37,713 nucleotides of DNA from Komagataeibacter europaeus LMG 18890 (GTDB lineage Bacteria > Pseudomonadota > Alphaproteobacteria > Acetobacterales > Acetobacteraceae): positions 5,037-42,749 of the forward strand of contig NZ_CADP01000023.1 of the NCBI RefSeq assembly GCF_000285295.1, given 5' to 3'. This document shows, in pieces, positions 1-7,046 of this stretch. The notes under the pieces are model-generated. The model was not told the origin of the DNA, ran no database searches, and saw only the letters and a list, made by a program, of their open reading frames with translations. The number at the start of each line of letters is the position of its first letter. Position 1 is the first letter of the stretch. The position numbers and the translations under genes are program-made.

Positions 1-911
1 GCCGCCACGACCGCAGGCGGCAGCGCGGTGGTGAAGATGAAGCCCGAAGCCGAAAGGCGCAGATATTCGACAATATCGCTGGTCGCGGTGATGTAGCCGC
101 CATGCACGCCAAACCCCTTGGCCAGCGTGCCTTCGATAATGTCCACCTGGTCGGCCACGCCGTCGCGTTCGGACACGCCGCCGCCCTGATCCCCGTACAG
201 GCCCACGGCATGCACTTCGTCCAGATAGGTGATGGCACCATACTTGCGCGCCAGCGCGCATGTCCCGGCGATGTCGGAAATGTCGCCGTCCATGGAATAC
301 ACGCTTTCAAACGCGATCAGCTTGGGCACGTCCCTGGGTGCCGCGGCCAGCTTGGCTTCCAGGTCGGCAAGGTCATTATGTTCGTAAATGACGGTGGTCG
401 AACCGCGCGCGCCCTTGATCCCCGCGATCATGGAGGCATGGTTCAGCCGGTCGGAAAAGCAGATCCAGCCGGGCATGCTGCTCAGGATCGTCTGCAGGGT
501 CGCCTGGTTGGAGACATAGCCGGACACGAACAGGAGGCCCGCTTCCTTGCCATGCAGGTCGGCCATTTCGGCTTCCAGCGCGGTATGGACCGGGCTGGTG
601 CCCGCGATGTTGCGCGTGCCGCCGGCGCCCGCGCCATGTTCGTGTATGGCCTGGATCGCGGCTTCGACCACTACGGGATCGACACCCATGCCCAGATAGT
701 CGTTGGAGGACCAGACCACGACCTCCCGGTCCTGCGGGCAGGCCGGCGTTGACGGAGTGGCCTGTGTTTCCGGCTGGTCATACAGGGGATAACGTTCGGC
801 CTGGCGTGCCAGTGGGGTGAACTGCCGGTATCGACCCTGCGCGCGGATATTCTCCAGCGCCGTCCGGCAGAACCGGAAGAACGGATGCCCATCCACTTGA
901 TTACTGGACAC
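1..911 (-). CDS. hemA: 5-aminolevulinate synthase (HemA), 3' end outside window
   Basis: Condenses glycine and succinyl-CoA to 5-aminolevulinate with pyridoxal phosphate, the first step of the Shemin (C4) heme pathway typical of alphaproteobacteria. The first 303 codons are visible. The frame reads SSNDYLGMG near the N-terminus, then GAGAGGTRNIAGT, the HASMIAGI segment, and DEVHAVGLYG with the cofactor-ring aspartate; it ends near TLAKGFGVHGGYI, the region of the PLP lysine. I place the start at a GTG (909-911) because GGAG lies about 10 bases upstream; a second in-frame GTG five codons later is possible. Upstream (912-1097) there is a 7-bp hairpin at 966-987 and no gene. The lipoprotein gene before it is on the same strand, 186 bases away, so hemA probably has its own promoter. 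Family assignment is firm; only the end is missing. Confidence 0.93.
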   Translation of the reverse strand, partial: MSSNQVDGHPFFRFCRTALENIRAQGRYRQFTPLARQAERYPLYDQPETQATPSTPACPQDREVVVWSSNDYLGMGVDPVVVEAAIQAIHEHGAGAGGTRNIAGTSPVHTALEAEMADLHGKEAGLLFVSGYVSNQATLQTILSSMPGWICFSDRLNHASMIAGIKGARGSTTVIYEHNDLADLEAKLAAAPRDVPKLIAFESVYSMDGDISDIAGTCALARKYGAITYLDEVHAVGLYGDQGGGVSERDGVADQVDIIEGTLAKGFGVHGGYITATSDIVEYLRLSASGFIFTTALPPAVVA

Positions 912-1097
912 TGCTGCTTTTCTCCATGCACACCCCGGATCGTTCACGGGGTCTTCATTCATGATGGTCACCATGCGTTGGGTGACCCGCGCCGGGGGGA
1001 TGATGTTCCCCTCACGCGGCGCTATCGCCGGGGGTTAACCGCCAGCGGACCACTCTTTATGGCATGATGGAGGCGGGAATTGCAAAACCGCATTGGA

Positions 1098-1562
1098 CTA
1101 CTCCGCGTAAATGCAGACCTGGGTTGCGCTGTTCGCGGGCACGCTGCGGGCATCCATTTCCGTCTGGCTGCCCCCTGCCCCCGCATCCATCACTGCCTGC
1201 AACACGGGCTGGCCATTGGCGTCCACCACTTTCTGCATGTCCGGCACGCTGCCATCGGCCCGGTCGGGCACGCTGACCACAATGGTGAACAGCGCATTGG
1301 GCTTGCGCGACAGGGCATCGGCCACGGCGGCGCGGACGGCGGGCTTCCACTGCGTATCGGGTGTTCCGGCCACGATCGTGACCAGCGCCGGGCGGTCCAT
1401 GCCGGGCACCGGCGGCGGCGGGTGCTGCGGCAGGTTCGGCGGATCGCCCGCATGGCGGTTGAATGTCTTCTGGCTGACCAGCTTGCACCCGGCCATGACC
1501 GGCAGGCAGGCGACTGCGACAAGGACGGCACGGCGGACAGGGCGCGGATACGGACGGGACAT
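1098..1562 (-). CDS. small hypothetical lipoprotein
   Basis: A 154-residue protein with a basic N-terminus (MSRPYPRPVRR), a short hydrophobic stretch and a lipobox LPVMAGC, so it should be cleaved before Cys25 and lipidated. The mature part begins with a proline-rich linker (NLPQHPPPPVPG), followed by a mixed domain with TIVAGTP and FTIVVSVPD strands that I do not recognise. It ends CIYAE with a TAG stop. It is transcribed away from the transketolase-like gene; the 129 bases between them (1563-1691) must hold divergent promoters, but no clear -35/-10 pair stands out. A role in the envelope follows from the lipobox only; the function is unknown. Confidence 0.75.
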   Translation of the reverse strand: MSRPYPRPVRRAVLVAVACLPVMAGCKLVSQKTFNRHAGDPPNLPQHPPPPVPGMDRPALVTIVAGTPDTQWKPAVRAAVADALSRKPNALFTIVVSVPDRADGSVPDMQKVVDANGQPVLQAVMDAGAGGSQTEMDARSVPANSATQVCIYAE

Positions 1563-1691
1563 GACCCCCTACCGATACAGTATCCCCCACCCGTGGCATA
1601 GTGGAACAATACCGCAATTGTTGCCGCCATCCGCGCGGCGCAGTAGTCATGCAGAAGCGGCCCCGACCGATCATACCCCGCCCCATGGACG

Positions 1692-3626
1692 ATGCCGATG
1701 CCAGAAGACCAAGCCATTACGCTTCCCCTCGCGCCGCCGCATGCCGCCCCCGGCATGCCCCAGCGGCTGGCGACGGCGATCCGCCATGCCATTGGCACCC
1801 ATGAACCCGATCCCCGCTACGCCCCGCATGCGCAGGTCATGGCCGATTTCTGCGCGGTGTTGTGGAGTCGCTTCCTGCGCTTCGACCCCGCCAGCCCCGA
1901 ATGGCCGGACCGGGACCGCTTCGTGGTCTCCTCCCCACGATATCGTGTCCTGCCGCGCATCATGGCCGAACTGTCAGGCCAGACACCGCTGCCGCCGCGC
2001 ATGGACGGACATGCCGCCGCCCACCATGACCGGCAGGCCTGCGGCCCCAGCGGACAGGGGCTGGGGGCCGCGATCGGCATGGCGCTGGCGGAACAGCACC
2101 TTGCGGCGCGGTTTGGCCGTTCGCTGGTCAATCACCGTATCTGGGGGCTGGGCTGCTGGACGGAACTTTCCACCGGTGTGGCGCTGGAAAGTGCGGCACT
2201 TGCGGGCCAGATGGGGCTGGACCGCGTCACGCTGGTCGTCGGCCTGTGGTCAGGCGAGCGCGAAGCCGTGGACGCCATCCTGCCGCGCTACAGCGCATCG
2301 GGCTGGTCGGTCAGGAAGGTGAACGCAGGTAGCCCCGAACAGATCGCGGCCGCCATCACGTCATCGCAGCGAACGCACAAGCCCTGCCTGATCGCCTGTA
2401 TCGCGGCGCCCGAAACCGATCCGCCACCGCCCTTCGTCGATGATCCGGGCCTGTGGGCGGGGGCCGCGCGCCGGGGGGCCAGTGCGCGGCGTTCGTGGCT
2501 GCGCAGGCTGCTCAAAGACCGGCAGAAAGCCGAATTCGAACGCATGGCCCGCAACCAGCGTCCCGCCTTCTGGCAACCCGACTGGCAGCGGTCATGGCGG
2601 GAACACGGCAGCGCGGTCGCACGTGTCTCCACCACCTTCGCGGCACGGCGGGGGCTCGAGACGCTGCATGAACTCCTGCCCGAACTGACATGCCTGCGTT
2701 CACGTCGCGGCATGCTGGCCGACCTGCCCGCCAGCCGCCGCAGTAGCGGCGAAATGGATCTGTCATGCGGGACGCAGGTGCATGGCATGGCGGCACTGCT
2801 CAATGGCATTGCCATGCATGACGGGCGGCTGGCGTTCGGCACATCGACCATCATCGCGGTGGACCGCATGCGTCCCGCCCTGCGCTATGCCGCCATGACG
2901 GACCTGCAGGTGATCTACCTGCTGACCGATGACGACCTGCGACGCGGCGACGGGGGCGGCGGCCAGCCGGTGGAACAGCTGGCCAGCCTGCGCGCCATGC
3001 CCAATGTCGCGGTTTTCCGCCCCGCCGACCACCGCGAGACCATGGAATGCATGGAACTGGCATTGCGGCGGACCAGCGGGCCAAGCCTGCTGACGCTGGA
3101 ATCGGCCCCCGCGCTGGCAACTTCCACGGCACCCGAACGTGAACAGCACGGGCTGACCAACCTGTGCGCGCGGGGCGGGTATGTGCTGGCCGAAGCCGAA
3201 GGCGCGCGGCAGGTCACGCTGATCGCCACGGGGCATGAGGCGATACTGGCGCTGGCGGCGCGCAAACTGCTGCGGGAGGCGGGAATTGCCGCGGCTGTCG
3301 TCTCCCTTCCGTGCTGGGAACTGTTCGCCGTGCAAAAAATGACGTATCGTGCCGCCGTGCTGGGAACGGCACCCCGGATCGGAATAGAGGCCGCTTCAGG
3401 GTTTGGATGGGAACGATGGCTTGGAACGGACGGGCTGTTTGTCGGCATTGATGGATTCGGGGCGCCTTCCACCCCCGACCAGCCGGACAGCGCGGCCGAC
3501 ATCACGCCAGAACGGATCTGCCGCGACGCATTGCGTCTGGTCCGCCCCCCATCCGACGCCCTGGTTGAAACCACGGGAGGAAACGGCGCGCCGTCCGGGA
3601 TGGCATCGGTCGATGCCAGTGTGTGA
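1692..3626 (+). CDS. transketolase-like protein, probably catalytically inactive
   Basis: A 644-residue protein that aligns end to end with transketolase. Recognisable blocks are DRDRFVVS (74), CGPSGQGLGAAIGMALAE (117), VHGMAALLNGIAMH (363), QPVEQLASLR (425) and LCARGGYVL (491). Key positions are altered. The first GHP histidine region reads PRYAPHAQ; the GHGSM block after DRDRFV reads PRYRV; the thiamine-diphosphate GDG motif reads GLG (152-154) and its downstream Asn is absent; the catalytic Glu of the REHGM/REFGM motif is Val363; the THDS histidine is Asp413 and the GPTHQP histidine is Gly424. I infer a pseudoenzyme or a protein with a different role. It lies 30 bases ahead of gap in the same direction, so it is probably cotranscribed with gap-pgk. 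A standard automatic label would be transketolase, which the residues do not support. Start: ATG 1692, with another ATG two codons later and no strong ribosome-binding site. Confidence 0.85.
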   Translation: MPMPEDQAITLPLAPPHAAPGMPQRLATAIRHAIGTHEPDPRYAPHAQVMADFCAVLWSRFLRFDPASPEWPDRDRFVVSSPRYRVLPRIMAELSGQTPLPPRMDGHAAAHHDRQACGPSGQGLGAAIGMALAEQHLAARFGRSLVNHRIWGLGCWTELSTGVALESAALAGQMGLDRVTLVVGLWSGEREAVDAILPRYSASGWSVRKVNAGSPEQIAAAITSSQRTHKPCLIACIAAPETDPPPPFVDDPGLWAGAARRGASARRSWLRRLLKDRQKAEFERMARNQRPAFWQPDWQRSWREHGSAVARVSTTFAARRGLETLHELLPELTCLRSRRGMLADLPASRRSSGEMDLSCGTQVHGMAALLNGIAMHDGRLAFGTSTIIAVDRMRPALRYAAMTDLQVIYLLTDDDLRRGDGGGGQPVEQLASLRAMPNVAVFRPADHRETMECMELALRRTSGPSLLTLESAPALATSTAPEREQHGLTNLCARGGYVLAEAEGARQVTLIATGHEAILALAARKLLREAGIAAAVVSLPCWELFAVQKMTYRAAVLGTAPRIGIEAASGFGWERWLGTDGLFVGIDGFGAPSTPDQPDSAADITPERICRDALRLVRPPSDALVETTGGNGAPSGMASVDASV

Positions 3627-3656
3627 AATGTCTGACCTTACGGAGAAAATAAGAAA

Positions 3657-4679
3657 ATGGCTGTCAAAGTCGCAATAAACGGTTTCGGTCGCATTGGTCG
3701 CCTTGTACTGCGTGGCATTATCGAAAGCGGGCGCACCGATGTCGTGCCCGTGGCCATCAATGACCTCGGCAGCGTGGCAGACAACGCACACCTGCTGTCG
3801 TATGACAGCGTGCATGGCCGCTTTCCCGCCGATGTAAAGGTGGATGGCAACCAGATCATCATCACCGCCAATGGCCGCACCTATGATCCCATCACCGTCT
3901 CGGCCGAGGCCGACCCGACGAAGGTGCCCTTCCGGGGCGTGGACGTGGCGCTGGAATGCACGGGCCGCTTCACCGACAAGGAAAAGGCCACCCAACTGAT
4001 CAAGGCGGGCGCGCGCAAGGTGATCGTGTCCGCCCCCGCGTCGGGCGTGGACGCCACCATCGTGTTCGGCGTGAACCAGGATGTGCTGACACCCGACATG
4101 ACCGTCATTTCCAACGCGTCATGCACCACCAACTGCCTGGCCCCGGTGGCCAAGGTGCTGGACGACACGTTCGGCATCGAATGCGGCTACATGGTCACCA
4201 TCCATTCCTATACCGGCGACCAGCGCACGGTGGACACGCTGCACAAGGACCTGCGCCGCGCACGCGGGGCGGCGCTGAACATGATCCCGACCTCCACCGG
4301 GGCCGCGCGCGCCGTGGGGCTGGTGCTGCCGCACCTGAAGGGCCGGCTGGACGGCACCGCCATTCGCGTGCCCACGCCCAATGTCTCGCTCGTCTCGCTG
4401 GATTTCGTGCCCAAAAAAGCCCCGGCCTCGGTCGAGGAAGTGAACGAGGCCCTGCTCAGGGCATCCGAGTCCGGGCCGCTGAAGGGCATCCTCGCCTACA
4501 ACACCGCGCCGCTGGTCAGCACGGATTTCAACCACTCCCCCGCGTCTTCCACCTTTGACGCGACCCAGACCGCCGTGATCGACGGTGGCAGGCTGGTGCG
4601 CATCTGCAGCTGGTATGACAATGAATGGGGCTTCTCCAACCGCATGGCCGACACGGCTGCCGTATTCGGGGCACTGTAA
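3657..4679 (+). CDS. gap: glyceraldehyde-3-phosphate dehydrogenase
   Basis: Oxidises glyceraldehyde-3-phosphate to 1,3-bisphosphoglycerate with reduction of a nicotinamide cofactor. The 340-residue protein has the N-terminal nucleotide-binding motif INGFGRIGR (7-15), the acidic residue of INDLG (34-38) usually linked to NAD preference, the catalytic [10 protein letters not shown] with Cys156, the base His183 in TIHSYTGDQ, and the C-terminal [11 protein letters not shown]. The start has GGAG at 3642-3645, about 11 bases upstream. It follows the transketolase-like gene by 30 bases, and its TAA stop overlaps the pgk ATG by one base (TAATG), which suggests translational coupling. In acetic acid bacteria, where the upper Embden-Meyerhof route is usually incomplete, gap and pgk serve the lower route fed by Entner-Doudoroff products; edd and eda are also in this window. 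Confidence 0.97.
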
Positions 4680-5902
4680 TGGGCGCAACATCCTTCAGGA
4701 CGCTGGATGACCTTGATGCCACGGGCAAGAAGGTTCTCCTGCGCGCCGATCTGAACGTTCCGGTCAGGAACGCCCAGATCGCCGATGCAACCCGCATCCT
4801 GCGCCTGCTGCCCACCATACAGGAACTGGCGCAGAAGGGGGCGAAGGTGATTGTCGTCAGTCACTTCGACCGCCCCAAGGGCAAGCCCGTGCCGGAAATG
4901 TCGCTTGGCCCGATCGCCGATGCGCTGGGCGATGCGCTGGGCCGTCCGGTCACCTTTGTCGATGACTGTATCGGCCCGAAGGTGCAGCAGGCGGTGGACG
5001 CGATGCAGGACGGGGATGTCGTGGTGCTGGAAAACACCCGCTTCTACCCCGGTGAGGAACAGAACGATCCCGCGCTGGCGAAGGAATTCGCATCACTGGC
5101 CGACTATTACGTCAACGATGCGTTTTCCGCCGCCCATCGCGCCCATGCCTCGACCGAGGGGGTGGCCCGCCTGCTGCCATCCTTTGCCGGGCGGTTGATG
5201 GAAACGGAACTCAACGCGCTTAACATCGCGCTGGAAAACCCCGCCCGTCCGGTTGGGGCCATCGTGGGCGGGTCCAAGATTTCCACCAAGCTGGACCTGA
5301 TCGGCAACCTGCTGGCCAAGGTGGACATGCTGATCATCGGTGGCGCGATGGCCAACACGTTCCTTGCGGCACAGGGGGTGAATGTGGGCCGGTCGCTGCA
5401 GGAAGCGGACATGCACGACACCGCGCGCGACATCCTTGCGAAAGCAAAGGAAAAGGGTTGCGAGATCGTGCTGCCGGTTGACGCCGTGACCGCAACGGAC
5501 TTCAGGGCCGATGTGCCGACCCGCACCGTGCCCGTCACCGCCATTCCCGATGATGCGATGATGCTGGATGTCGGGCCGGAAACGGTCAGGCTGATCGAGC
5601 AGAAGATCGCGACGCTGAAAACACTGGTCTGGAACGGCCCGCTGGGCGCGTTCGAGATCACGCCGTTTGACGCCGCGACCAATGCGGTGGCGCGCGACGT
5701 GGCGCGCCTGACCGATTCCGGCGCGCTGAAAAGCATCGCGGGTGGCGGGGATACGGTTTCCGCCCTGCGTCATGCGGGGGTGGAGAAGCATATCTCCTAC
5801 ATTTCCAGCGCGGGCGGGGCCTTCCTTGAATGGATGGAAGGCAAGACGCTGCCGGGCATCATGGCGCTGGAAAACATCTTTGAACGCGCGCTGCCGATCT
5901 GA
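4679..5902 (+). CDS. pgk: phosphoglycerate kinase
   Basis: Transfers the acyl phosphate of 1,3-bisphosphoglycerate to ADP. The 407-residue protein begins [11 protein letters not shown] and has the substrate-binding block LRADLNVP, the hinge-region VGGSKISTK, the nucleotide-binding [10 protein letters not shown] and GGGDTVSAL segments, and ends near [16 protein letters not shown]. The length is normal for the family. The ATG at 4679 overlaps the last base of the gap stop. Longer reading from 4625 would run inside gap and is not needed. The gene is followed by a repeat element and a clear hairpin plus T tract at 5977-6006. Confidence 0.97.
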
Positions 5903-5914
5903 GGAAAAGTAACC

Positions 5915-5978
5915 AAAGTTTCCGGGTGCCGCCTTTTTTCAAAAAGGCGGCGTTCCCTGAGGCTTTTTTCAGGTCAGG
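5915..5978 (+). repeat. dispersed palindromic element, copy A (degenerate right end)
   Basis: Starts AAAGTTTCCGGGTG, then a near-perfect hairpin with arms GCCGCC and GGCGGC (5928-5951) around a T-rich/A-rich middle, then CGTTCCCTGA and a decayed second arm (GGCTTTTTTCAGG). It matches copies B (12851-12928), C (15860-15938, inverted) and D (37318-37346). It sits between the convergent ends of pgk and ftsY. The right terminal repeat seen in B and C is missing or replaced here by an ordinary terminator. Confidence 0.7.
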
Positions 5979-6006
5979 GACCATCCCGTGGGGTGGTCCC
6001 TTTTTT
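5977..6006 (+). terminator. rho-independent terminator of gap-pgk
   Basis: GGGACCA (5977-5983) pairs perfectly with TGGTCCC (5994-6000) across a 10-base loop, followed by six T residues (6001-6006). It lies 75 bases past the pgk stop and just before the convergent end of ftsY. Confidence 0.85.
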
Positions 6007-6029
6007 CATGCCGGGATGGTTCTGCGAAA

Positions 6030-7046
6030 TCAGCCCTGCTGTTGCGGGTGTTCCGCCCCGGACGGAGGCGCTTCGGCATCTTCCGCCTGATCTTCGACGG
6101 GCCTGTCGTCGCGTTCGATGACCTTGATCGAATCGCCAACCAGCCCTTTGGCGAACGCCTCGGCAGAGAACGGGCGCAGGTCATCGGCCTGTTCGCCCAC
6201 GCCCACCAGATGCACCGGCAGGCCGAACGCATCGGCCAGTGCAACCACGATCCCGCCACGGGCCGAACCGTCCAGCTTGGTCACGACCAGCCCGGTCACA
6301 TTGACCAGTTCCTTGAATACCCGCACCTGTTCCACCGCGTTCTGCCCCGTGGTGGCGTCCAGCACCAGCAGCACGGAATGGGGTGCGGTTTCGTCAAACT
6401 TGCGCATGACGCGGATGATCTTGGCCAGTTCCTCCATCAGCGCGCTCTTGTTATGCAGGCGGCCCGCCGTGTCGACCAGCAGCAGGTCGGCCTTTTCCGC
6501 CGTGGCGCGCTTCAGCGCCTCGAACGCCAGTCCCGCCGCATCGGCGTTGGGCTTTCCCGCAATGACGGGCGCACCCGTGCGCTCGCCCCATACCTGCAAC
6601 TGTTCGACGGCTGCGGCGCGGAAGGTATCGCCCGCGACCATCATCACCTTCTTGCCCTGTTCACCATAGAAACGGGCCATCTTGCCGATGGTGGTGGTCT
6701 TGCCGGTGCCATTCACCCCCACCACCAGCACCACATGCGGCCGGTGCTTCGGGTCGGGTTCAAACGGGATGGCGACGGGCTGAAGGATGGTGGCGATTTC
6801 TTCCGCCAATGCCTGGCGCACTTCCTCATCCGTCACTTCCTTGCCGAACTTGGAACGGCGGAAGGATTCAATCACCTTTTCCGCCACGCTGGGCCCAAGG
6901 TCGGCGGAGATCAGCAGGTCCTCAAGATCCTCCAGCGCCTGGTCATCCAGCTTGCGCCGGGTAAAGACCGCGCTCAGCCCGCCGCTGAGTTTCTGTGTGG
7001 AGCGCGACAGCCCCGCCTTGAGACGTGAGAAAAAACCAAGTGCCAT
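6030..7046 (-). CDS. ftsY: signal recognition particle receptor FtsY
   Basis: SRP receptor GTPase that docks ribosome-nascent chain-SRP complexes at the membrane translocon. The 338-residue protein starts MALGFFSRLK, an amphipathic membrane-association segment, followed by a short N domain and the G domain: VVGVNGTGKTTTIGK (G1, about 109), the DTFRAAA block, LLVDTAGR (G3), TKLDGSARGG (G4) and GVGEQADDLRPF. The acidic N-terminal A domain of enteric FtsY is absent, as is common in alphaproteobacteria. The C-terminal 25 residues or so form an acidic, proline-containing tail after the fold. The ATG at 7046 is one base after the mtaB stop, so it is the last gene of dapF-mtaB-ftsY. Confidence 0.95.
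   Translation of the reverse strand: MALGFFSRLKAGLSRSTQKLSGGLSAVFTRRKLDDQALEDLEDLLISADLGPSVAEKVIESFRRSKFGKEVTDEEVRQALAEEIATILQPVAIPFEPDPKHRPHVVLVVGVNGTGKTTTIGKMARFYGEQGKKVMMVAGDTFRAAAVEQLQVWGERTGAPVIAGKPNADAAGLAFEALKRATAEKADLLLVDTAGRLHNKSALMEELAKIIRVMRKFDETAPHSVLLVLDATTGQNAVEQVRVFKELVNVTGLVVTKLDGSARGGIVVALADAFGLPVHLVGVGEQADDLRPFSAEAFAKGLVGDSIKVIERDDRPVEDQAEDAEAPPSGAEHPQQQG

Follow-up and report, generated by a model that had tools for sequence, protein, structure and literature searches.

The question raised by this locus is why an uninterrupted open reading frame that resembles transketolase (TKT) over its full length, and from which the active-site residues are gone, is kept directly in front of gap and pgk. 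The window, i.e. the whole stretch of DNA analysed, comprises 37,713 nucleotides from the draft genome (4.2 Mb) of Komagataeibacter europaeus LMG 18890. The frame (positions 1692–3626, plus strand) has 644 codons and no internal stops; gap, encoding glyceraldehyde-3-phosphate dehydrogenase (3657–4679, plus strand), starts 30 nt past it, and pgk, encoding phosphoglycerate kinase (4679–5902, plus strand), has an inferred start sharing one base with the gap stop codon. Scanning of the region revealed no terminator-like site between the degenerate gene and gap, and a terminator-like hairpin 3′ of pgk (5976–6001, plus strand), one of three such sites where 3.4 are expected by chance. The two promoter-like matches in the region both lie on the minus strand, with 0.8 expected by chance. 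It was also noticed that a divergent gene, named lipoprotein-like by its look (1098–1562, minus strand; no Pfam match), is tied to the locus in many Acetobacteraceae, including genomes without a tkt-like gene.

An earlier note, made from the letters of the window alone, had described the product as a full-length TKT homologue stripped of its active site, and its domain make-up agrees with this. All TKT domains exceeded their Pfam cut-offs, namely Transketolase_N (90.7 bits, cut-off 22), Transket_pyr (59.6, cut-off 27) and the C-terminal Transketolase_C_1 (103.2, cut-off 27) and Transketolase_C (28.6, cut-off 25.9), and only TKT domains appeared in the Pfam scan. Solved structures related to the protein by sequence were named transketolases, with ordinary ones at the top, and the score against NCBIfam TIGR00232 was 278 bits, below the curated equivalog cut-off of 682. 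A structure predicted from 14 Komagataeibacter sequences had a mean pLDDT of 43 and a pTM of 0.40 and was set aside as a basis.

For residue scoring we used 16 catalytic or substrate positions, among them the ThDP/Mg ligands (D155 and N185), the catalytic residue (E411) and the active-site histidines and substrate residues (H26, H66, H261, H461, H473, R358 and R520; E. coli TktA positions). When aligned by MAFFT to E. coli TktA from NC_000913, the window protein kept none of the 16 upon recounting, whereas the three further TKTs of the same genome (L099, L100 and L101) kept 16/16 each. The changes from E. coli to the window protein were H26 to Y43, H66 to R83, D155 to W156, E160 to T161, R358 to T315, D381 to R338, E411 to V363, F434 to T386, F437 to A389, Y440 to R392 and H461 to D413; D469, H473 and R520 were also lost, in a part where the alignment register is less sure, and H261 fell inside a deletion. 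The partner of N185 depended on the alignment, being Trp in two and a gap in another, and was never Asn. Among the acetic-acid-bacterium copies compared, the deleted columns correspond to approximately E. coli 90–95, 189–191 and 252–279, the last including H261. An alternative alignment built mostly from catalytic TKTs gave the window protein 5/16, with ambiguous loops placed differently, and left W156, T161, V363 and D413 unchanged. The earlier assignments of Val363 to the catalytic Glu and of Asp413 and Gly424 to two histidines were all correct in the TktA alignments, but the GLG that the note had matched to GDG lies three residues off: the alignments place GDG on C155-W156-T157 (CWT).

From the alignments and substitution rates, the protein was divided into a former diphosphate-binding (PP) domain (residues 45–237; 1824–2402, plus strand) that has lost D155, E160 and N185, a basic linker (residues 250–303; 2439–2600, plus strand), a former Pyr domain (residues 306–480; 2607–3131, plus strand) with V363 and D413 in place of E411 and H461, and a C-terminal domain (residues 481–616; 3132–3539, plus strand) that is well retained, with 25 of the 33 columns near-invariant among catalytic TKTs still present. 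The residue features of a catalytic transketolase (D155, N185, E411 and the histidine/substrate set) are thus missing from the window protein; although it descends from transketolases, it is without the catalytic hallmarks of the family and should not be classified as a member.

Within Komagataeibacter, a homologue was present in all 19 genomes, at 79–100% identity over nearly the whole length or in two pieces, being uninterrupted in 18 and split over two contigs in the remaining one. The possibilities raised in the note, that close relatives have restored the catalytic residues or that sister genomes show mere decay by frameshift, were not borne out: besides these 18 intact frames, the genus sequences scored each keep at most one of the 16 positions. 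Conservation of the altered residues held in part, since they are largely fixed in the genus (C155, W156, T161, V363, T386, A389, R392 and D413 are invariant in 14 sequences, the position matching TktA 26 varying among Y, H and Q) but former pocket positions hold different residues in different degenerate lineages of the family. The pooled Nei-Gojobori dN/dS of 18 sequences was 0.196 in frame. As controls, the two remaining forward frames gave 1.71 and 2.62 and those of the reverse strand 1.61, 0.30 and 2.43; we attribute the 0.30 to shared third positions. When single sequences were compared with the window gene, the values were 0.10–0.22. For comparison, dN/dS in the genus was 0.051 for gap (18 sequences), 0.088 for pgk (13 sequences) and 0.070 for a catalytic TKT paralogue (8 sequences). 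Neither the disrupted frame nor the neutral rates that mark a pseudogene were found; the catalytic residues are gone and the frame is under purifying selection, as the note had surmised for this member of the gap-pgk operon, and the product is a probable pseudoenzyme.

The constraint is unevenly distributed. Regional dN/dS in the degenerate protein (18 sequences) was 0.152–0.155 for PP, 0.033–0.034 for the linker, 0.240–0.244 for Pyr and 0.132–0.134 for the C-terminal domain, and the corresponding values for the catalytic paralogue (8 sequences) were 0.067, 0.110, 0.045 and 0.066. In the genus, the linker is therefore the most constrained region of the degenerate protein and the least constrained of the catalytic paralogue, while Pyr has the highest dN/dS of the four regions in the degenerate protein; bootstrap ranges for the latter protein, from at most 60 sequence pairs, were 0.008–0.047 for the linker and 0.174–0.315 for Pyr. 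Synonymous rates were not lowered in the linker (0.54 versus 0.43–0.54 in the other regions), so the constraint acts on the protein. As far as sequences can show, selection on the degenerate gene operates at the protein level.

The linker contains RRGASARRSWLRRLLKDRQKAEFERMARNQRP and conforms roughly to RGAxxRRxWLKRLxRHxxRxEFERxxxGRLP, a motif that marks the TKTs of this locus in both the catalytic and the degenerate state. Its core, R.W[LR][KR]R, was found in 48/55 catalytic and 60/64 degenerate copies of the locus (47/51 of the latter when one Komagataeibacter row was kept), strict matches being missing from seven and four copies, respectively. The core was missing from all 56 TKTs compared from elsewhere in the family, a set in which a few genes are present twice, and from all eight non-operonic Komagataeibacter TKTs. 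Among 30 TKTs of other alphaproteobacterial families, these being the best-scoring loci and no random draw, it occurred once, in L304. Degenerate copies have a mean linker net charge of +6.2, catalytic operonic copies one of +4.1 and the eight non-operonic copies one of −3.4. Among 33 hand-picked degenerate representatives, W269, R272 and R284 were identical and position 271 was always basic. Class retention across representatives was 0.82 for the C-terminal domain, 0.75 for the linker, 0.60 for Pyr and 0.58 for PP; the C-terminal domain thus slightly outdoes the linker, which can be only part of the explanation. Furthermore, the linker was not unusually constrained in four catalytic operonic pairs (dN/dS 0.14–0.62), and in several degenerate pairs some other region was more tightly constrained than the linker (L073/L114, 0.66; L195/L196, 0.30; L083/L088, 0.20; L090/L092, 0.23). 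Past the basic segment, residues 291–303 (2562–2600) form a Trp-rich stretch (PAFWQPDWQRSWR), and similar W-rich forms were seen in other degenerate copies. In the sequences compared, a basic linker specific to this locus is thus common to catalytic and dead copies, and its occurrence in the catalytic operonic copies suggests a non-catalytic role older than the loss of catalysis.

Three arrangements were seen upstream of gap in the Acetobacteraceae sampled: a catalytic TKT, a degenerate TKT with an unbroken frame, or no such gene. Of 110 genomes of the family, 107 had a gap match at E 1e-80; the neighbourhoods of gap were collected for most genus codes, and 128 TKT sequences were scored. Fifty-five of these were catalytic TKTs from the locus, counting L080 whose contig lacks gap (52 scoring 16, two 15 and one 14), and 64 were degenerate TKTs from the locus, counting L102 of genome G134 that does not adjoin gap (61 scoring 0–6 and three 10); the remaining nine came from other loci, E. 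coli included. The distance from the end of the TKT to gap exceeds 1 kb in L145 and L181. Uninterrupted degenerate copies were tallied by hand in 21 genus codes, outside which stands L161 (genome G110, 79% complete), a copy with 24 unknown residues, matches in two frames and 10/16 that is included in the 64. The residue counts were subject to a 450-residue filter, which excluded the contig-end-cut operonic copies L109, L166, L171 and L183 and would also have dropped strongly truncated ones. Both states occur within genus codes g99 and g97, with L170 and L186 being catalytic and L079, L089, L093 and L094 degenerate. Outside Komagataeibacter, dN/dS was 0.03–0.38 in 16 degenerate pairs, 0.45 for L077/L082 and 0.17 for the degenerate-catalytic pair L079/L170; four catalytic operonic pairs gave 0.21–0.35.

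The gene was absent from sixteen genomes, one each from 16 genus codes, indicating that a lineage can do without it. No tkt remnant was detected upstream of gap in these genomes (best E 0.64), and a search for linker remnants gave a best match of only E 0.03; all 16 had a homologue of the divergent lipoprotein-like gene 0.2–0.7 kb upstream of gap. Among 18 loci examined that lack a TKT before gap, this homologue lay within 0.7 kb in 16 and at 1.6 kb in L140, and none was seen in L138. In G134, the degenerate gene (L102, 4010–5890) is intact, encodes 626 aa with the motif, and adjoins a lipoprotein homologue and an ORF named aconitase-like by its look, gap and pgk being on another contig.

A quick tree of gap plus pgk from 93 loci (38 degenerate, 38 catalytic and 17 gene-less) required 11 changes between the catalytic and degenerate states, and its starred branches forced at least six changes for the catalytic group and at least eight for the degenerate group; eight of its rows cover less than half of the columns, and vertical inheritance of gap and pgk is assumed. 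Constraining all degenerate and gene-less loci to one clade was rejected with a p-AU of 4.1e-9, a value that is optimistic because the group was picked after inspecting a gap tree. A FastTree phylogeny of the 128 TKTs speaks against many origins by bringing most degenerate copies together, on long branches, in a single group, and it also pairs L079 (6/16) with the catalytic L170 (support 0.998). We suspect long-branch attraction behind the grouping and therefore prefer the gap plus pgk tree for the matter of recurrence, by which the active site appears to have been lost several times independently in Acetobacteraceae.

A strong TKT elsewhere in the genome, defined as a match to E. coli TktA at E 1e-110 or better, was tallied by hand in all 23 genomes with a degenerate operonic copy (including G027 and G091, in which that copy is cut by contig ends) versus 12 of 54 with a catalytic one, the operonic TKT being the sole strong one in the other 42. 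G110, outside this tally, had no match at the threshold and a split TKT elsewhere in another search. Fisher's exact test gave p 3e-11 with relatedness ignored; with relatedness respected, about four pairs were for the association, none against and two tied (median p 0.125), so that the direction holds over few independent pairs. In a separate set of 46 genomes, mostly carriers of degenerate copies, at least one strong TKT was found in 46/46. When further TKT copies were fetched, 47 of 48 scored 16/16 and one was a split frame. The type of the other TKT differed by lineage, with approximately 57–85% or 46–49% identity to the query TKT. In passing, Glu was seen to replace the metal-ligand Asp155 in otherwise complete TKTs (15/16; L027, L028 and L267–L270) from two genomes of the window's genus (G014 and G008) and from genus codes g9 and g85.

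These data are best read as the window gene product being a pseudoenzyme that keeps an ancestral non-catalytic, probably binding, function. Several alternatives were considered. The protein may be a nucleic-acid-binding regulator whose basic linker binds RNA or DNA, e.g., the mRNA of its own operon, with the dead TKT fold as carrier. The positive linker charge of operonic copies in both states, as against the negative one of the eight non-operonic copies, and the motif's accompanying the operonic gene are in keeping with this, but the Pfam scan gave TKT domains only, the synonymous rates of the linker reveal no RNA-level constraint there, and no Rfam family reached its gathering threshold within 900–6200; we regard such a regulator as unlikely. 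Less likely still is a dominant-negative subunit that pairs with the catalytic TKT and switches it off. The active sites of TKT sit at the dimer interface, so a mixed dimer would have none, and both the retained TKT fold and the co-occurrence of degenerate copies with another TKT would be expected of such a subunit. However, the motif is present in 48/55 catalytic copies and the operonic TKT is the sole strong one in 42/54 catalytic genomes, and its occurrence in single-TKT genomes weakens the mixed-dimer idea; moreover, with the other TKT being of different types across lineages, no single interface explains the retention.

The frame could also be a relic serving as a translated spacer, held open since a stop would reduce gap and pgk expression, with the protein itself irrelevant. 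The short distance to gap in most loci, together with the lack of a terminator-like site before gap in the window, fits this explanation, which is already disfavoured and appears very improbable: amino-acid constraint (dN/dS 0.20 overall and 0.03 in the linker) and the separation from gap in G134, where the gene is nevertheless intact, speak against it, and in 16 genomes the gene has gone without a detectable remnant. The earlier note had left two options, a non-catalytic pseudoenzyme or an enzyme with changed chemistry, and the former fits better. A remodelled pocket would account for the consistent set of replacements within Komagataeibacter (W156, T161, V363 and D413), but the replacements differ among lineages, the stretch with H261 is deleted and Pyr, of the four regions, is under the weakest constraint, leaving changed chemistry as the least probable of these alternatives.

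Returning to the pseudoenzyme with an ancestral function, we propose that the operonic TKT of Acetobacteraceae would combine catalysis with a non-catalytic job borne by the basic linker that joins PP to Pyr and supported by the TKT fold and the C-terminal domain. Where another TKT supplies catalysis, the operonic protein could shed its active site and survive with the non-catalytic job alone, and the window gene would represent the extreme state of this process. That the operonic TKT had two jobs, and that catalysis was lost where another TKT covers it, seems to us somewhat better than an even prospect. The linker, with the fold and the C-terminal domain, would carry a binding function predating the loss of catalysis and would dock a partner, for which we favour the co-encoded Gap and/or Pgk because the linker motif accompanies this operon; nucleic acid and the catalytic TKT rank behind them. 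Taken alone, even this most likely partner is a doubtful candidate; if correct, the protein would serve lower glycolysis as a scaffold or as a regulatory subunit.

The window protein resembles the TktA-type bacterial transketolase (EC 2.2.1.1) in domain make-up and full-length similarity, and a catalytic homologue in sister genera occupies the same operon position; it differs in that ThDP/Mg ligands, catalytic Glu, active-site His and substrate residues are replaced or deleted and in that constraint has shifted to the linker. By analogy only, it is like human TKTL1, a TKT paralogue without an active-site segment. A TKTL1 model with a 38-residue deletion is reported to have no specific thiamin binding and no TKT activity (PMC3485151), and a modelling study disputes the inactivity of TKTL1 (PMC6334435). 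Unlike TKTL1, the window protein lacks all 16 scored residues, and the loss is bacterial, has been repeated independently and took place in a conserved operon slot. By title and start of abstract, no description of a degenerate operonic TKT in Acetobacteraceae was found in the open-licence PMC literature; a K. xylinus genome paper gives four 'tkt' loci (PMC5908849).

Pseudoenzymes are well known, but one operonic enzyme converted time and again, its catalytic, intermediate and dead forms occurring across sister genera and in two cases inside one genus code, is an unusually good natural experiment. For models of cellulose- and vinegar-producing bacteria, it serves as a warning that not every 'tkt' equals flux capacity. 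It is tentatively suggested, at a little short of even confidence, that the basic linker of operonic TKTs holds an unrecognised second function older than the loss of catalysis, the enzyme around it having been stripped several times independently. If so, the family would offer a series of naturally occurring separation-of-function variants for an enzyme of central metabolism, whose second, non-catalytic job would be directly testable through the short linker.
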